Shown here piece by piece: positions 2,501 through 28,988 of a stretch of 33,468 bases of DNA (positions within the stretch are counted from its first letter, which is position 1; every line of letters starts with the position of its first letter). The translations under genes were made by a program, and so were the position numbers. The notes under the pieces were generated by a model. The model was not told where the DNA came from. It searched no databases and saw nothing but the letters and a program-made list of their open reading frames with translations. This stretch comes from a virus, in the IMG/VR virus record IMGVR_UViG_3300020394_000761, positions 1-33,468 of that record. One strand, 5' to 3'.

Positions 2501-2873
2501 CTTCTGGGAGCTCTATCGTCTGCGCCGGCGTAGGAGACTCTGACGCTGCGGCTTGTGTTGACTCGCTCTTAGAATCAAGCATTTCCAGATCGCTCACAAT
2601 AATCTCTGTGCGGTATTTCTTCTCTCCGTTCTGATCCCAGCTACGGGTTTTAAGGCGCCCTGTTACAGCAACCTTGCTCCCCTTCTTTACATACTGCTCG
2701 ACAACACCGACGATACCTTCTCGGTTTACCTTGCAGTTATGCCACTCCGTATAGTTCCCGTCTTTAGCCCACTCCCTTGTTGCGAGGCTAAACTCTGCGA
2801 CCTTGCCGCCATTGTCGAAACTTCTTATTTCTGGGTCTTTGCCCAAGTTACCAACCAGATTAACTACGTTCAT
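2484..2873 (-). CDS. ssb: Single-stranded DNA-binding protein (SSB)
   Basis: 129 residues. It opens MNVVNLVGNLGKDPEIRSF and has the OB-fold hallmarks in order: EFSLATREW, then WHNCKV, then GSKVAVTGRLKTRSW, then the YRTEIIVSDLEML strand. A Ser/Ala/Pro linker leads to the acidic tip EDDIPF, the conserved C-terminal peptide that recruits partner proteins. It should bind ssDNA as a tetramer during phage replication and recombination. It overlaps the YqaJ gene upstream by four bases (ATGA) and the DUF3310 gene downstream. Family length is normal. Confidence 0.95.
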   Translation of the reverse strand: MNVVNLVGNLGKDPEIRSFDNGGKVAEFSLATREWAKDGNYTEWHNCKVNREGIVGVVEQYVKKGSKVAVTGRLKTRSWDQNGEKKYRTEIIVSDLEMLDSKSESTQAAASESPTPAQTIELPEDDIPF

Positions 2874-3829
2874 TTTTTGTTCCTTCTAACTGAGTAAGTG
2901 GTACTACCTGAAGAGCGATACTTCTCGAAGCAGGTGTCGCTAGGTAACAGATCGGAGCAGGCTTTGTGCCACGCTATCTCTCCAGACCTATTAACAACAC
3001 TGACCTGCCATGTATTGCCTTTTACTGCCTTTCCCCCAGAATACTTCTTGGTTTCCGGATCTAACTCGACGCCGGCATATTCCAATGCCCTGTCACGCGC
3101 CGCCTTTTTTACTCCCTCCCAGTACTTCAGATTCTCATCAGCCTCATCGAGCAAGCGCTCGATCTCCTGAAACTCCGGATCATCTTTGGCGGGAGAATAC
3201 TCTTTGAGATCTTTTGCGAATTGTATCCAGCCGTCTACCAGCAGCCGCTGCTTCATTGGCTCATGGTGATAATGAAAGCTAGACATATTGGACTCTGTGC
3301 CGTCGGAGGTAACAAACCAGCACTCCTTTGCACCGCTGACTAGCATCTGGTGCTCTATCTGCCAGACGATATAGTCCGGTAGCTTTCCGTCATCTATTGC
3401 TGCAAACAGAATCTTGTTATCGAGCTTGTGCTCGAACAGCAGTAAGCCGTCCTCCGTCAAGCCGTCGAATGACGCAGCCAACCCCATGCCATAGTCTTTG
3501 AAGAACGCAGCGTCCGACGGATCCGGATAATCTGCATCCTCCGCAGCCGCTACCCTGGGCGCAAAAGTAATCGGCCTGCCGAACAGCTCGCTGGCTTGCG
3601 CCTCTGCGATAGGCCGAGCTGCTTCCTCTGCAGCGTCGCCCCTGTCAAACAGCTCTTGCGTGTATTGGTTTACGGGGGCTTTGGTGCCGGAGTCATAAAA
3701 GTCCAGCAGCTCCAGACGCGAGGTGTGGGTAGACGCGCCCATCATTGCCGGCGCGTTAGATGCAGTGAACACAGTAGTGCGCCACTCTTTCCATTCAGGC
3801 GATTTCTGAGGCAGATCTATTATCTTCAT
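2870..3829 (-). CDS. YqaJ-type (lambda exonuclease family) recombinase nuclease
   Basis: 319 residues from the ATG at 3829, which overlaps the preceding stop (ATGA) and has AGGT upstream; longer upstream extension is not needed. Motifs of the PD-(D/E)xK exonuclease fold are present: SPEWKEWRTTVFTASNAPAMMG near the N terminus, Asp122 in AASFDG, Glu133-His-Lys135, and the WQIEHQ motif near 156-161. In this family the enzyme digests dsDNA 5'-3' and hands ssDNA to an annealing protein. The adjacent SSB and candidate annealing gene fit that pairing. The C-terminal ~120 residues (coiled region plus a beta part) extend past the core and are typical of phage versions. Confidence 0.88.
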   Translation of the reverse strand: MKIIDLPQKSPEWKEWRTTVFTASNAPAMMGASTHTSRLELLDFYDSGTKAPVNQYTQELFDRGDAAEEAARPIAEAQASELFGRPITFAPRVAAAEDADYPDPSDAAFFKDYGMGLAASFDGLTEDGLLLFEHKLDNKILFAAIDDGKLPDYIVWQIEHQMLVSGAKECWFVTSDGTESNMSSFHYHHEPMKQRLLVDGWIQFAKDLKEYSPAKDDPEFQEIERLLDEADENLKYWEGVKKAARDRALEYAGVELDPETKKYSGGKAVKGNTWQVSVVNRSGEIAWHKACSDLLPSDTCFEKYRSSGSTTYSVRRNKK

Positions 3830-4527
3830 TGCGCACCTGCCTGATCCCAAGCATCTTGTGCTTGCTTGATCTTGCTCGACTGTTCTTGTGTTGGAGCCCA
3901 CCCCTGCGATTCAAACCACTTCTGGCACTGCTCCATCGAGCGCTTGCCGGAGCCGACCCAGCCCAACACATCTGCTAGGTTAGTATCTGGCACTGGGGGC
4001 TTGGGCTTTTGCTTTGCAGGTGCCTTAGCGGGGGCTCTCTTGGCGGGTGTGCGAGCAGCAGCTTTTTCTTCGTTGGCAGCAGGATCCGCAGCTTGCGTAG
4101 CAGGATCCTTTGGCTTGTCTATAGGATTATCTGCTGTATCTTCCAGCTCATCATCTGAGTAGACGTAGCCGTGCAATCCGACCAGCTTGAGTATGACGCG
4201 ATCTTTTGCTCGCTTCTCTGCCATAGCTAGCGGGAATTTGTTTTTACAGTTCTTGTCAGATGCTTCGCCGTATGACCACTCGCTGCGATCATTCAAATGG
4301 CCCCGCACCCATACTGCTGCATAGCCAACATTGCCATGCGTTAGGTCAACGGTGATTACCTGCGGGTCATCAAACGTCACGCCTTGTGCTGCAGCGATTC
4401 GCTCTAGCGCTTTGTGGTAAACACAGAGCGTCCCGTGACAATCCCACAACGCGCTTTCCGCTGTTTCACCTATCTCTTTCAGCTTCTCCCCAACAATCGA
4501 AGGGTAGTTAAGTTTCTTCTTAGCCAT
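3826..4527 (-). CDS. Candidate single-strand annealing protein (recombinase)
   Basis: 233 residues from the ATG at 4527, chosen because AGGAGG lies nine bases upstream; an ATG at 4536 would sit on top of that site. The N-terminal domain (1-130) has WDCHGTLCVYHKALERIAAA, VWVRGHLN, then WSYGEAS and PLAMAEKRAKDRVILKLVGLHG. I associate this pattern with phage proteins that sit beside YqaJ exonucleases. A low-complexity Ala/Pro/Lys/Asp linker (about 130-190) and a short helical C-terminal domain (about 192-233) follow, an architecture seen in ERF and RecT-like annealing proteins. The function is inferred from position between SSB/exonuclease and the promoter-proximal gene; no annealing motif is diagnostic. 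Confidence 0.6.
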   Translation of the reverse strand: MAKKKLNYPSIVGEKLKEIGETAESALWDCHGTLCVYHKALERIAAAQGVTFDDPQVITVDLTHGNVGYAAVWVRGHLNDRSEWSYGEASDKNCKNKFPLAMAEKRAKDRVILKLVGLHGYVYSDDELEDTADNPIDKPKDPATQAADPAANEEKAAARTPAKRAPAKAPAKQKPKPPVPDTNLADVLGWVGSGKRSMEQCQKWFESQGWAPTQEQSSKIKQAQDAWDQAGAQ

Positions 4528-5048: not shown

Positions 5049-5459
5049 ATGGATCATATTATAGGTAAGCTCCGCAAAGCTAAGTACTCTGGGATAAGCA
5101 ACAAGGGATATAGATATTGGAAGGCGTGTTGTCCGGCGCATGATGACAACACGCCAAGCCTAATGGTTACTGAGGCGGATAATGGGGCATTGTTCTATTG
5201 TCTTTCGGGCTGCTCGCAAGACGCTATTCTCTCCGCTCTGCAGCAGCTCGGCCTCAGACCAAGTGACCTGTTCTGGGATGACGGTTGGAAGCCGCAAGAA
5301 AAACCTATCTTTGATGACATTAGCCGCATGATTACCGTGATCGGGCGGCATGACGTTCGCAAGTGTCAAGCTGAAGGCAGGAAGATCTCTGACAAAGATC
5401 GGGCCGATCTGAAAAAGGCGTTGATGTTGGAGCATATGTCAAAGAGAGCGTCGGCATGA
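5049..5459 (+). CDS. Primase-type zinc-binding domain protein
   Basis: 136 residues behind a strong GGAGGGAGGATAAG ribosome site. It contains a CHC2-like zinc domain: CCPAHDDNTPSL (Cys28, His31) then ALFYCLSGCSQDAI (Cys51, Cys55) and a helix ending LGLRPSDLF. In full-length primases this domain reads the template, followed by a TOPRIM catalytic domain. Here no TOPRIM follows; the remainder (80-136) is a charged helical tail. It may help a host primase (DnaG) load or act with the initiator and helicase encoded next. Its stop overlaps the next ATG (ATGA). Confidence 0.82.
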   Translation: MDHIIGKLRKAKYSGISNKGYRYWKACCPAHDDNTPSLMVTEADNGALFYCLSGCSQDAILSALQQLGLRPSDLFWDDGWKPQEKPIFDDISRMITVIGRHDVRKCQAEGRKISDKDRADLKKALMLEHMSKRASA

Positions 5460-6184
5460 GCTTCGACCTGCAGGCTAAAGTTTGGAACATCGACTTCATC
5501 AAACCAGCCAGCCATAAGTATGTTCTCTTATGTCTGGCCCATAGAGCAAACAAGGCCGGCGTCTGCTGGCCTAGCATTGCCACTATATCCAAAGACACTG
5601 GACTATCTTTGGGTACAGTGCGCTCTGCGATAAAGACCCTGGACGCAGACAACTGGATTTCACTAGATCGACGCTCAGGACAGAGCACTCGCTTCATGCT
5701 CAACGTGCAGCATATCGAGGAGTGGGGGGTAAATACCCCTACTAATTTTGATAGAGGTACCCATACCAGAATTGATAGGGGTACCCCTGATAAAACTGCT
5801 ACCCCACCCCTACCAGAATTGGTAGATGACCCCTCCCAAAACTGTAAGCCGAACAAGGAAAGAACCAATCAAGAACAAGTAACAAAGCAGATGGTTTACG
5901 AACGAGATGGTGCGGGTGCGTTTATGGCGGAGCTCGCAGAGATCCCAGAGGACTGGGAGCCGAGCGATAAAGTCAGGGAGTGGGCGGCAGCGCAAGGTAT
6001 TGGTGAGGAAGATTTCAAAGCTCACGCGGAGGCGTTCAAGCGGAAGTGCAGGAAGCGGCGGTATAAATACTATTGCTTCGATGCGGGACTCGAGGACGCA
6101 ATCATTCAAAACTGGGCCAACATAACGCCAGATCAAAGCCAGTTTATGAGGGCCGGCGTTTATGTTGCTGGGAGGAACGCATGA
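5456..6184 (+). CDS. Replication initiator with helix-turn-helix (lambda O-like)
   Basis: 242 residues. The N-terminal winged HTH reads KYVLLCLAHRANKAGVCWPSI, then a TISKDTGLSLGTVRSAIKTL recognition segment (about residues 20-70). A low-complexity linker (about 93-135) is encoded by a palindromic repeat array. The C-terminal domain (EIPEDWEPSDKVREWAAAQG... FKRKC... NWANI) resembles the DnaT-like/O-type C terminus that contacts the helicase or loader. Placement before a helicase gene matches lambda O-P. The repeats within the gene are a likely replication origin bound by the HTH domain. ATGA overlaps occur at both ends. Confidence 0.8.
   Translation: MSFDLQAKVWNIDFIKPASHKYVLLCLAHRANKAGVCWPSIATISKDTGLSLGTVRSAIKTLDADNWISLDRRSGQSTRFMLNVQHIEEWGVNTPTNFDRGTHTRIDRGTPDKTATPPLPELVDDPSQNCKPNKERTNQEQVTKQMVYERDGAGAFMAELAEIPEDWEPSDKVREWAAAQGIGEEDFKAHAEAFKRKCRKRRYKYYCFDAGLEDAIIQNWANITPDQSQFMRAGVYVAGRNA
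5726..5829 (+). repeat. Iteron-like palindromic array, candidate replication origin
   Basis: Three GGTACC-centred palindromes recur every 24-26 bases: GGGGTAAATACCCC (5726-5739), GGTACC (5756-5761) and AGGGGTACCCCT (5777-5788, perfect). Between them lie cores TACTAATTTTGATAG (5740-5754), TACCAGAATTGATAG (5764-5778) and TACCAGAATTGGTAG (5811-5825); the last forms the perfect inverted repeat CTACCA-GAAT-TGGTAG (5810-5825). The 24-base period is a codon multiple, so the initiator linker tolerates it. Lambda-type phages place the origin iterons inside the O gene in the same way, so I propose this as the origin; no experimental support is visible. Confidence 0.6.
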
Positions 6185-7197
6185 ATCAATTTACACCGGA
6201 CATAAAAGACTATCGAGATATTGACGCGCAAGAAGAGCTATCAGATAGCGAGATCGACAGACTCATATCCCCTAAGTTTCTGGTAGACAGACTGCAGGAT
6301 CGCAGGGAGGCACGGGTTCATGGTATCGAGCTGCCATTCCAGCAGCTCAAAGATACGGACTTCCGGCTGCATGAAGGCACTCTTAATATGATCGGCGGGT
6401 ATACAGGTCACTTCAAGTCGACCATAGCTAGCCAGATCGCGTTGCGAGCGCTGCGTAAAAACATCAAGGTTGGTGTCGCCAGTTTGGAGCTGTTCGCGGA
6501 AGATGTGCTCGAACATCTGACAGAGATCGCTAACTGCAAGACTGCTCCGCTAAATTATGTGGAGGCATTTGCAGAGTGGGCTAACGAAAAGCTGTTCATT
6601 TACGACCGCATGGAATCTATCGACCCAGAAGAAGCGGTGCAGATGTGCATAGCGCTAGCCAAGTATTGCGGCTGCAAGCTGATCGTTCTCGATAGCTTGA
6701 TGATGATAAACGGGGTCAGTGGAGACACCGCTATCGAGCAGCGGTTCAGTCAGACACTGGCAGCAGTGGCGAGAAAGTTCGATACCTGCATATTGCTAGT
6801 ACACCATGTTCGGAAGCCAGGGGCAGAAGGCGAGGCCAAGGTACCTGGCAAGTATGAGTTTTTGGGCAGCAGTCACCTTGCAAACATTGCAGCGTCGATC
6901 ATGGTTGTCTGGCATGACAAGGTGCAGAATGAAATGCGCACGTCCGATGAGCTCGGGCGCAAGGCAGCACACAGGATGAATGTGCCGCACGTTTCCAATC
7001 CAGAGTACAAACCGCATCTAGCCGATATGGTGTTCAAGGTTGTAAAGAACCGATACTCGCGGTATGAAGGATCTATCGAGCTATGGAGACATGATGATTG
7101 CCGTGGATTTACCAGTGATTCTGGTCGTTTTCTGACGCAGTTCACGATACAGGACTTGCTGAAGGAGCAGGGCGATCATCTTAGAGAAGTGATATGA
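6181..7197 (+). CDS. Replicative helicase, RecA-fold (DnaB-like)
   Basis: 338 residues from the ATG at 6181 that overlaps the initiator stop (ATGA). Walker A is GGYTGHFKST (residues 72-81, Lys79), Walker B is LIVLDS (Asp171), and LLVHHVRKP (His208-His209) matches the post-Walker-B H motif of DnaB/RepA family helicases. It has no DnaB N-terminal domain, only about 60 residues before the ATPase core. The Gly normally before the P-loop Lys is Phe78, a variant. It should be a hexameric ssDNA translocase that unwinds the fork, loaded through the adjacent initiator. Confidence 0.85.
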   Translation: MNQFTPDIKDYRDIDAQEELSDSEIDRLISPKFLVDRLQDRREARVHGIELPFQQLKDTDFRLHEGTLNMIGGYTGHFKSTIASQIALRALRKNIKVGVASLELFAEDVLEHLTEIANCKTAPLNYVEAFAEWANEKLFIYDRMESIDPEEAVQMCIALAKYCGCKLIVLDSLMMINGVSGDTAIEQRFSQTLAAVARKFDTCILLVHHVRKPGAEGEAKVPGKYEFLGSSHLANIAASIMVVWHDKVQNEMRTSDELGRKAAHRMNVPHVSNPEYKPHLADMVFKVVKNRYSRYEGSIELWRHDDCRGFTSDSGRFLTQFTIQDLLKEQGDHLREVI

Positions 7198-7625
7198 GCA
7201 CGTCATACGCGCTGCAGAAGCGAGAGCAAGTAGACTTCATGGCGGAAGAGCTTGGTAATCTAGTCGAGAAACATGGCTTGGTTACTGTCGATTACAAGGT
7301 TGGCAGAACCAGATCCGCCTTTCAGCAGGCAGCGCTAGAAGTTTGGTGCCGGCAGGTGGCTGAGTTTTTTAACGATCAAGGCATCGACAGGGCGGTGAAG
7401 AGCCCGATCTTTAAGAAGGGCGAGATGTCTGCGCCGTGGAGTAGGGAGTCGGTCAAGAATGAGATCTGGCGACCGATCCAAAAAGCACTGACTGAGCATG
7501 AATCTACAACCAAGCCCACGCCGCAGGAGTATGTCGAGATCTTTGATTTTATTGTGAAGGCGTTTGGCGAGAAGGGTTTGACCCTACCGGCATGGCCCGT
7601 CAGGAGAGACAATGGCAGCACTTAA
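7194..7625 (+). CDS. NinB-like recombination protein
   Basis: 143 residues starting at an ATGA overlap with the helicase. The pattern VDYKVGRTRSAFQQAALEVWCRQVAEFFND, then SRESVKNEIWRPIQKALTEHESTT, then EYVEIFDFIVKAFGEKGLTLPAWP resembles a NinB-related phage family (RS.xQ.xA...W...A, then W.P.Q...ST, then a final PxP). Lambda NinB (Orf) binds SSB-coated ssDNA and loads recombinase. The gene directly precedes a NinG-like gene, the order seen in lambda's nin region, which supports the call. The similarity is at motif level only. Confidence 0.62.
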   Translation: MSTSYALQKREQVDFMAEELGNLVEKHGLVTVDYKVGRTRSAFQQAALEVWCRQVAEFFNDQGIDRAVKSPIFKKGEMSAPWSRESVKNEIWRPIQKALTEHESTTKPTPQEYVEIFDFIVKAFGEKGLTLPAWPVRRDNGST

Positions 7626-8031
7626 ACGGACGCCTGCTGACATAGCCTTCAGTCTTTGTATTCGTGAGCGCAGCGACTGGACTTGTGAGCGCTGCGGCAC
7701 AAAGTATGAGCCTAACAGTCGGGGGCTGGAGTGCTCCCACTATCACACGCGAGGCAAGTGGGGGGTGCGTTTTCATAGCCTGAATGCTGAAAGTCTATGC
7801 ACCGGCTGTCATTTTCTTGAGGGTGGGCTGAAGCGAGCGGATGGCAATCTGACTGAGTTTCAGCTCGATGTGCTTACAGATCTGGTCAATGACACTGGCC
7901 TCGGCAAAGAGATTAGAAAAACGAAAGGCAAAGGAGAGATCGCAAAGCATTTCAGAGAGCAGCACAAGCTCATGCTAGAAAAGCGATCCCAGGGTGTGAA
8001 GGGCAGGCTAGAGTTCGAGGACTGGATATGA
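7612..8031 (+). CDS. NinG/Rap-like or HNH-type zinc nuclease
   Basis: 139 residues with GGAGAG seven bases before the ATG. Zinc-site residues appear in order: C25-x2-C28, then LECSHYHTRGKWGVRFHSLNAESLCTGCH with Cys41, His43, His45, Cys63, Cys66 and His67. This matches the NinG/Rap and HNH-like treble-clef pattern, in which the enzyme cuts branched DNA such as recombination joints. The C-terminal half is basic and helical (KTKGKGEIAKHFREQHKLMLEKR). It overlaps the NinB-like gene by 14 bases and the next gene by four. An ordinary HNH nuclease remains the alternative. Confidence 0.75.
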   Translation: MAALKRTPADIAFSLCIRERSDWTCERCGTKYEPNSRGLECSHYHTRGKWGVRFHSLNAESLCTGCHFLEGGLKRADGNLTEFQLDVLTDLVNDTGLGKEIRKTKGKGEIAKHFREQHKLMLEKRSQGVKGRLEFEDWI

Positions 8032-28295: not shown

Positions 28296-28988
28296 ATGGC
28301 TAGAACGATAAGGCTAAACACCGCTACTGGTGCTGCAGCAGGAGGAGCCGCCGGACTCACTACCGCAGATGTTGAAAAGGTCGTAGAGGATAAGGCTCGA
28401 TGGATTTTGGATTATGAAAAAGACTACGGAGACTCCATACCATCCGGATGGTTGCCATTGATCCCTGCTATCGACTTCGATAATTGCTTTTCGTACAAGG
28501 TATTGATCCGTGGCTTTGGGCCTAATAGCGGCACCTCAAGAATGGACGTTAGGATTCAGTCTGGTGCCAGTCCAATATCAGGGACAAGCAATTACAACAG
28601 CCAAGGAAATTACAATACTAACGGTTCCAGCAACGGCTTCGGAGCTAATTCAACTTTTAGCAATGGTAATTATCAGCCAAGCTCGGCTACGTATGATTCG
28701 GCTTCTACCGGCGGCGCCCAAAACATGAAGGAGTTTGTATTCTTCTTCAATAGAAGCGACGCCCCTAATACTGGGCGTAGATACTTTTCATTCACATACA
28801 TTGTGTACCCGCCCCAAGCCGGAGGGTATCAGCAGTATGGCTCTCGCAGCACTCACGAAATAATCGCCAGCCAAGATTTTGACAATATCGCTTTTGGCTT
28901 TAGTGGTGGCGCATTTTATAGCCCCACTAGTGCCTCCGTAACACCTGTAATACAGGTGTATAAACAACTTCGCGCCCCCGCGAGTTAA
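28296..28988 (+). CDS. Fibre-associated protein, 230 residues
   Basis: The start is the ATG at 28296, three bases after the upstream stop; a longer reading would overlap the previous gene. N terminus ARTIRLNTATGAAAGGAAGL then a short helix (TTADVEKVVEDKARWILDYEKD), followed by a Gly/Ser/Asn-rich beta domain (NYNSQGNYNTNGSSNGFG). The last residues are VIQVYKQLRAPAS. The C-terminal domain resembles that of the next gene in composition. It is probably a short fibre or base component. Confidence 0.6.
   Translation: MARTIRLNTATGAAAGGAAGLTTADVEKVVEDKARWILDYEKDYGDSIPSGWLPLIPAIDFDNCFSYKVLIRGFGPNSGTSRMDVRIQSGASPISGTSNYNSQGNYNTNGSSNGFGANSTFSNGNYQPSSATYDSASTGGAQNMKEFVFFFNRSDAPNTGRRYFSFTYIVYPPQAGGYQQYGSRSTHEIIASQDFDNIAFGFSGGAFYSPTSASVTPVIQVYKQLRAPAS
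28941..28959. repeat. 19-base perfect odd palindrome inside a fibre gene
   Basis: ACACCTGTAATACAGGTGT is a perfect inverted repeat (9-bp arms, one central base), within the last codons of the preceding gene. It may be an accident of coding sequence, an operator-like site, or the first part of a 3' structure, since a second GC-rich hairpin starts at 28966. Confidence 0.45.
28966..28986 (+). terminator. GC-rich hairpin across the stop codon, possible terminator
   Basis: AACT-T-CGCG pairs with CGCGAGTT around CCCC, one bulge, spanning the stop. The run after it is AATTTCTAAAC, so termination would be weak. It could also protect the upstream mRNA. Confidence 0.35.

Follow-up and report, generated by a model that had tools for sequence, protein, structure and literature searches.

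A putative replication origin, made of iterons and an adjoining candidate GAACC-type repeat tract, inside an HTH_36-type phage initiator gene

Introduction

Why does the gene of a phage replication initiator carry a regular series of palindromes in the middle of its coding sequence? Such a series could be a by-product of the encoded peptide, an operator, a chance cluster, or the place where the phage starts to replicate. We addressed this question in IMG/VR record IMGVR_UViG_3300020394_000761, here called the window, whose 33,468 bp are the whole virus record and encode terminase- and portal-type genes. Among 50,697 phage records, megablast gave no near DNA match to bases 1-25000. A first-pass annotation had read palindromes at 5726-5829, within the initiator gene, as a lambda-like origin.

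Results and discussion

Initiator protein and gene neighbourhood

The initiator gene lies between a zinc-ribbon gene and a helicase gene (Table 1). Its product matches HTH_36 (PF13730; 7.1e-11, 42.2 bits versus a curated cut-off of 25), and also matches PHROGs of the replication initiation / O-like kind. In the AlphaFold2 model (mean pLDDT 66.6), the protein shows the layout of an HTH_36-type initiator, with the N-terminal HTH_36 followed by a linker and a C-terminal domain, and linker residues 93-157 are left disordered. A Foldseek search of the PDB with this model returned mostly winged-helix proteins as best matches, none of them at E<=0.001, and by sequence no solved structure was found either for the window initiator or for lambda O. 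A match to Phage_rep_O (PF04492) was not reported for the window initiator at E<=0.001, while lambda O scores 5.7e-36. The product, earlier described as an O-like HTH protein, is thus lambda-like in layout; by sequence, it is of the HTH_36 type and not a Phage_rep_O homologue.

Table 1. Features of the replication region, in window positions (+, strand as numbered;., no strand given)
Feature	Position	Strand	Remarks
CHC2 zinc-ribbon (primase-type) gene	5049..5459	+	Zn_ribbon_DnaG 6.9e-6; upstream of initiator gene
Replication initiator gene, 242 aa	5456..6184	+	winged helix 1-91, disordered linker 93-157, helical C-terminal part about 160-222
Inverted repeat GGGGTA-AA-TACCCC	5726..5739	.	lead-in to first unit; read from sequence
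Iteron 1, ACCCCTACTAATTTTGATAGAGGT	5735..5758	+	frame 0
Iteron 2, ACCCATACCAGAATTGATAGGGGT	5759..5782	+	frame 0
Perfect 12-bp palindrome AGGGGTACCCCT	5777..5788	.	at iteron 2/3 junction
Iteron 3, ACCCCTGATAAAACTGCTACCCCA	5783..5806	+	frame 0, weak dyad
Iteron 4, ACCCCTACCAGAATTGGTAGATGA	5806..5829	+	frame 2; holds perfect 6-bp hairpin 5810-5825
Iteron 5, ACCCCTCCCAAAACTGTAAGCCGA	5829..5852	+	frame 1, degenerate; by eye, outside four-copy blind search
Putative unwinding tract, three 11-nt copies GAACAAGGAAA, GAACCAATCAA, GAACAAGTAAC	5851..5883	+	11 bp apart, three reading frames
AT-rich, A-rich stretch	5853..5892	+	65% AT, 57% A
Helicase gene, DnaB_C/AAA_25	6181..7197	+	immediately downstream of initiator gene; family matches

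Regarding the neighbouring genes, the zinc-ribbon gene encodes 136 residues with a CHC2 zinc ribbon, a TOPRIM domain not being reported, and the initiator gene occupies the place of the middle part in a full primase-helicase. Also near the replication module are a YqaJ/RecE-like exonuclease gene (2870-3901, -) and a NinG/HNH-like gene (7612-8031, +). The GC skew, proposed as a check of the origin, does turn near 5 kb; however, gene orientation flips at the same place, so that the skew is not probative.

Iteron array in the linker-coding sequence

Inside the initiator gene, at 5735-5852, we identified five units of about 24 bp, which are mostly palindromic and of a ACCCCTACCAGAATTGGTAGGGGT-like type. 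Because their starts (Table 1) are spaced by 24, 24, 23 and 23 bp, the iterons fall in three reading frames; they encode different peptides, namely TPTNFDRG, THTRIDRG, TPDKTATP, PPLPELVD and DPSQNCKP for iterons 1 to 5. The period of about 24 bp is real: copies of 28 nt start at 5735, 5759 and 5806, and a four-copy array at 5735, 5759, 5783 and 5806. Iteron 5 shares 81% identity with iteron 3 over 16 nt at a spacing of 46 nt. The earlier extent of 5726-5829 was thus right in its coordinates and too short, as the array continues to 5852. As had been proposed, the array falls within the predicted disordered linker (residues 93-157).

The two perfect palindromes noticed previously were both found again, i.e. 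the 12-mer at the iteron 2/3 junction and the hairpin CTACCAGAATTGGTAG, whose perfect 6-bp arms surround GAAT. Out of 12 possible complementary pairs, iterons 1 to 5 have 8, 8, 2, 7 and 5, so that units 3 and 5 hardly qualify as palindromes. The alternation of GGTACC-type and other palindromes is present as well, but the two classes are one feature rather than separate sites. Head-to-tail palindromic units of 24 bp give a second dyad (GGGGTACCCC) per junction, and the GGTACC centres are therefore not independent sites. On the + strand, a terminator-like hairpin inside the gene (5721-5743) overlaps the lead-in palindrome.

The array compared with synonymous shuffles

The array finder looked, at any place in a gene, for four 18-mers that resemble one another and follow at spacings of 19-27 bp (maximum score 54). 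As null model, synonymous codons were permuted within the gene, which keeps protein and codon usage fixed and places mutation bias within the linker outside the model. The window array, with four units, scored 40 of 54 compared with 30.9±1.3 in the shuffles (P=1/2001). In 12 other genes of the record, P ranged from 0.11 to 0.99, thus none was below 0.1. Applied to lambda O, the finder returned exactly the four annotated iterons (P=1/2001), and in P22 gene 18 an array beginning at the annotated origin. The previous statement that coding constraints alone are insufficient is thus borne out for the array, which protein-preserving shuffles fail to reproduce.

Other statistics of the region were mixed. 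Three stems of at least 6 bp with loops of 0-4 were observed (P=0.003, synonymous null), and a dyad test summed over the four copies gave P=0.010, two of the five units having weak dyads. Under the same null, neither the 12-mer as longest perfect palindrome (P=0.09) nor the number of perfect 8-mer palindromes (P=0.51) is exceptional by itself. An earlier gene-wide dyad-array statistic, run on 16 of 23 genes, gave P=0.998 for the window and was powerless even for lambda (P=0.25). The array is absent from the list of Tandem Repeats Finder. Elsewhere in the window, positions 28385-28536 contain three 6-bp stems per 104 bp, the same count as the array region.

Conservation of the array in relatives

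Searching with the initiator protein alone gave no close relatives among viral contigs or genome contigs, and relatives were found through the neighbouring helicase. The helicases of two of them, L002 and L003, are 66-67% identical to that of the window, and their initiators 35% and 34%, respectively. Arrays of the type ACCAGTACCAAAAACGGKAC were detected in L002, L003 and L036 (P=1/2001 each), and further arrays in L038, L039, L041 and L042 (P=1/301 each) and in L037 (P=0.010). L002, L003, L036 and L038 share the zinc ribbon-first order of the three genes with the window, and they keep arrays in the linker though the linker peptides differ. Loss of the feature in relatives, which had been proposed as grounds for refutation, was thus not observed at the level of the array. 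By reading, the dyad skeleton TACC-N6-GGTA is found in both the window and L003. In the case of L002 versus L003, only 1 of 11 fourfold-degenerate sites is changed in the array, compared with 24 of 59 such sites outside it; in addition, the two arms of one iteron are altered symmetrically (TACC..GGTA versus TCCC..GGGA).

Some observations lie beside this pattern. In the same four relatives, the gene that precedes the initiator is short and zinc-ribbon-like. In L044, L045 and L046, a similar helicase goes with a different initiator, which in L045 has no Pfam match, and no significant array was found. The linkers of L046 (about 190-270) and L045 contain closely spaced GTCACGGGACA-like words, non-significant in the four-copy test.

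For a wider set, 80 genome and 80 viral loci (4 of the 160 skipped as short or with N) were combined with the earlier genes and clustered at 60% identity; from the earlier matches (94 and 104 records), 19 had been fetched, picked for variety. Of the resulting 44 clusters of initiators, 29 gave an array at P<=0.05, placed in the linker in all except Vibrio_p42, and 15 were without a significant array. Though clustered, these related genes are not independent. Host diversity was read from the titles of genome-contig loci and phage records, not from IMG/VR records.

A GAACC-type repeat tract next to the iterons

Many initiators show a second element, consisting of repeated GAACC words directly 3' of the iterons, at the position of lambda's AT-rich stretch. 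The element is built from 11-mers related to GAACCRTCA, 10-13 bp apart. In the window, the AT peak 3' of the iterons belongs to the top 0.1% of 40-nt windows in the gene, and three copies of an 11-mer begin here (Table 1).

To describe this element quantitatively, a position weight matrix (PWM) was trained on 19 clusters that contain AACC at least three times, the tested cluster always being left out, and three sites 10-13 bp apart were required; L109 was omitted from training by hand despite its three AACC. In the clusters outside the training set, 11 of 25 pass P<=0.05 against synonymous shuffles, the window included (P=0.0024, N=5000). With both strands of the whole record considered, the highest score (21.3) falls at the window tract (5852), next to iteron 5, followed by an independent place with 10.9, and in 15 control genes no P was below 0.27. 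As the strict AACC word does not recur at the window tract (chain length 1), the tract is a degenerate form. The test was not passed by lambda, P22, the L041 clade, L104, Vibrio_p42, VibrioK67 and others. The cluster of L104 with KpF5, KlebP7641 and YeP1 is without tandem GAACC and has, at the corresponding position, GAYCCRTCAG-like words that may represent a tract variant. Overall, the putative origin reaches 3' beyond the array as first noted, into an AT-rich repeat tract with a putative role in unwinding.

Blind scan for the tract

IMG/VR was then scanned for GAACCRTCAN{1,3}GAACCRTCAN{1,3}GAACC without protein information, which gave at least 120 loci, a non-random sample of all matches. 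Among the 120 matches listed, 88 lie inside an open reading frame with an N-terminal HTH of the window family (own profile, E<=1e-3), in the linker. In these 88 listed loci, the tract is always on the same strand as the reading frame and 27-101 residues past the HTH, and in 64 of the 88 its three copies occupy more than one frame. The 88 listed loci form 38 clusters, and in 32 of these an iteron array was detected (P<=0.05 with 100 shuffles); among the matches listed, the tract starts at most 40 nt from the array end in all 32 array-bearing clusters. Between the clusters of listed tract loci the iterons vary, and the tract is common to them. In the open-licence literature searched, we found no description of a tract common to phages with differing iterons.

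As a control, the word CCAAGRTCA of equal composition was found at 28 loci. No HTH of this kind accompanied any of them, and in 25 of the 28 the match length was 29, i.e. both spacings were 12, as expected of in-frame coding repeats.

The 32 of 120 listed loci without an HTH reading frame comprise 18 with 12-mer repeats, 9 cut by contig edges and 5 others. The 18 are simple 12-mer repeats of the GAACCGTCACCG/GAACCATCACCA type and look unrelated. As for the 9 edge-cut listed loci, all five with at least 100 nt upstream show arrays (mononucleotide shuffle). Among the 5 other listed loci, L259 and L305 have a fitting array just upstream. In L305, in a region that spans the match at 4179-4207 (-) and about 200 nt ahead of it, the GAACC tract directly follows a four-copy array, and the open frame over the tract has only 38 residues; a broken gene, an assembly frameshift or a non-coding origin are candidate explanations.

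Relation between HTH and iteron sequence

HTH identity and the similarity of the iterons are correlated across a set of 93 nonredundant array-bearing genes (Spearman 0.42, 4278 pairs), and in the 3345 pairs below 40% identity the Spearman coefficient is 0.15. Left out of this set were lambda, P22, L044, L045, L035part and L046part, and HTH alignments with at least 15 gaps were dropped. After identity correction, the columns that best predict the iterons correspond to window residues 53, 75, 52, 29 and 56. Of these, residues 52, 53 and 56 lie at the start of the recognition helix, 75 belongs to the wing and 29 to the end of an earlier helix. The whole recognition-helix range was not significant as predictor of iterons (P=0.13). 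Because of this group test, and because gene pairs are not independent, the sequence comparison is suggestive only of recognition-helix and wing columns that may track the iterons.

Proposed model and alternative explanations

The array, its DNA-level nature and its position, the layout kept in relatives, the tract beside it and the order of the genes are, in our opinion, best explained by an origin of the phage's own inside its initiator gene, and it is very probable that the initiator binds the iterons and melts the adjoining tract, where the helicase is loaded. The lambda-like reading of the first-pass annotation is thereby supported, since the array lies in the linker of an initiator-type protein with a helicase gene next to it, as in P22 genes 18 and 12. 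How binding, melting, helicase loading and the start of replication might come about can be outlined as follows. Copies of the initiator, probably dimers via the winged-helix domain, would bind the five iterons in the linker-coding DNA. The bound initiators would wrap this DNA into a compact nucleoprotein complex, which would assist in melting the AT-rich repeats that adjoin it on the 3' side. At the opened tract, the DnaB-type helicase that the phage encodes downstream would then be loaded. As the linker peptide is unstructured, its coding sequence would be free to carry the binding sites.

It could also be argued that the array is an operator, by which the initiator binds its own gene to control transcription or translation, not replication. 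Indeed, an initiator bound inside its own gene could hinder its transcription, and the hairpin at 5721-5743, a palindrome followed by a T stretch, resembles a terminator. As a terminator, however, this hairpin is weak: its T run is interrupted, and such sites are expected by chance (4 versus 1.3±1.3 in shuffles of the region). The array moreover occupies the position of the annotated lambda and P22 origins, with the AT-rich tract adjoining it. An operator in place of an origin is thus quite improbable, and the two roles could coexist.

A different explanation would be that the repeats merely follow from a linker peptide that is itself repetitive, with selection acting on the protein. It is true that no part of the array lies outside the linker, and that in-frame repeats of 8 residues exist in some relatives (Vibrio H20). 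In the window, however, the units fall in frames 0, 0, 0, 2 and 1 and encode different peptides, shuffles that preserve the protein fail to give the array (P=1/2001), and the tract copies occupy more than one frame in 64 of the 88 listed loci, which makes this explanation very hard to believe. Chance clustering of short palindromes in an unconstrained region, for which the unremarkable 12-mer (P=0.09) and the blank result of the weaker dyad statistic could be quoted, is the least credible of all, given the array test (P=1/2001), the stem test (P=0.003), the arrays kept in relatives and a tract match at the expected place.

Returning to an origin within the initiator gene, a wider hypothesis can be formulated, which we consider conceivable though somewhat short of likely. 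Origins of HTH_36-type phages may be two-part, with iterons that vary with the recognition helix and a GAACCRTCA opening element, 11-mers 10-13 bp apart, that would be largely shared across phages and prophages of many bacterial groups because it is read, probably single-stranded, either by the initiator through one of its conserved parts or by a conserved replication factor; the window would have a degenerate form. If so, the binding specificity would be swappable and the melting code fixed. It is this generality, rather than an origin of the lambda/P22 plan itself, that could matter. Each such gene holds a DNA-binding domain together with its target sites, so that the 93 nonredundant genes are a natural paired data set on specificity. 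Should the tract prove to be a true opening element, it would provide a sequence handle by which origins of phages could be located in raw metagenomes. It would also allow one to test the way in which DNA is opened by simple initiators, an open question according to the title of PMC5043065.

Comparison with known origins

The lambda origin resembles the putative one of the window in that the iterons, mostly palindromic in the window, lie within the initiator coding sequence, with an AT-rich stretch 3' of them, and in the spacing of the iterons (20/24/23 as annotated in lambda, 24/24/23/23 in the window). In lambda, gene O is followed by gene P, which we take to encode the helicase loader, and in the window a helicase gene follows the initiator gene. 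According to the excerpts of PMC7466680, O binds the iterons of lambda, each of them an imperfect inverted repeat, next to an AT-rich tract; the binding of O and the opening of this neighbour are described there and in the excerpts of PMC5043065. In those of PMC3349717, the iterons are four in number and 18 bp long, and the AT-rich sequence has 38 bp. The window differs from lambda in iteron sequence, in having five units of about 24 bp versus four of 18 bp, and in protein family (HTH_36 versus Phage_rep_O). Its flank is also milder in AT fraction (0.65-0.68 versus 0.78-0.80), and a GAACC-type tract is absent in lambda (PWM P=0.72).

P22 (genes 18 and 12) and phage L (gene 18) likewise have intragenic repeats followed by a DnaB-type helicase gene. 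In the case of P22 gp18, the iterons are different, and the tract test gave P=0.055, its match lying inside the iterons. In SPP1, the origin-binding protein gp38 binds direct repeats in its own gene (oriL), with an AT-rich unwinding element, according to the excerpts of PMC6316719, a layout like that of the window. This likeness is one of description, not of sequence, and SPP1 differs in having a separate helicase loader and a second origin, oriR.

To our knowledge, plasmid iterons are not located within the initiator gene. They are mostly direct repeats that bind monomers, as stated in the excerpts of PMC5043065. Iteron plasmids (13-mers of RK2 oriV, 8-mers of F oriS) nevertheless resemble the window in that, in the excerpts used, the iterons adjoin a short-repeat AT-rich element; their motif TAAACnTTnTTTT differs from GAACCRTCA. 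In RK2, TrfA binds one strand of the repeated 13-mers, all four of which matter, and repeated motifs are mentioned in passing for the AT-rich region of origins, that of lambda included (both from the excerpts of PMC4081077). By analogy, the GAACCRTCA tract may work like the RK2 13-mers. The excerpts of PMC8022706 place different iterons inside the respective initiator genes of lambda, P22 and L, and those of PMC6316719 give intragenic iterons for SPP1, so the intragenic origin layout of the window is of an already known kind, namely the lambda/P22 plan.
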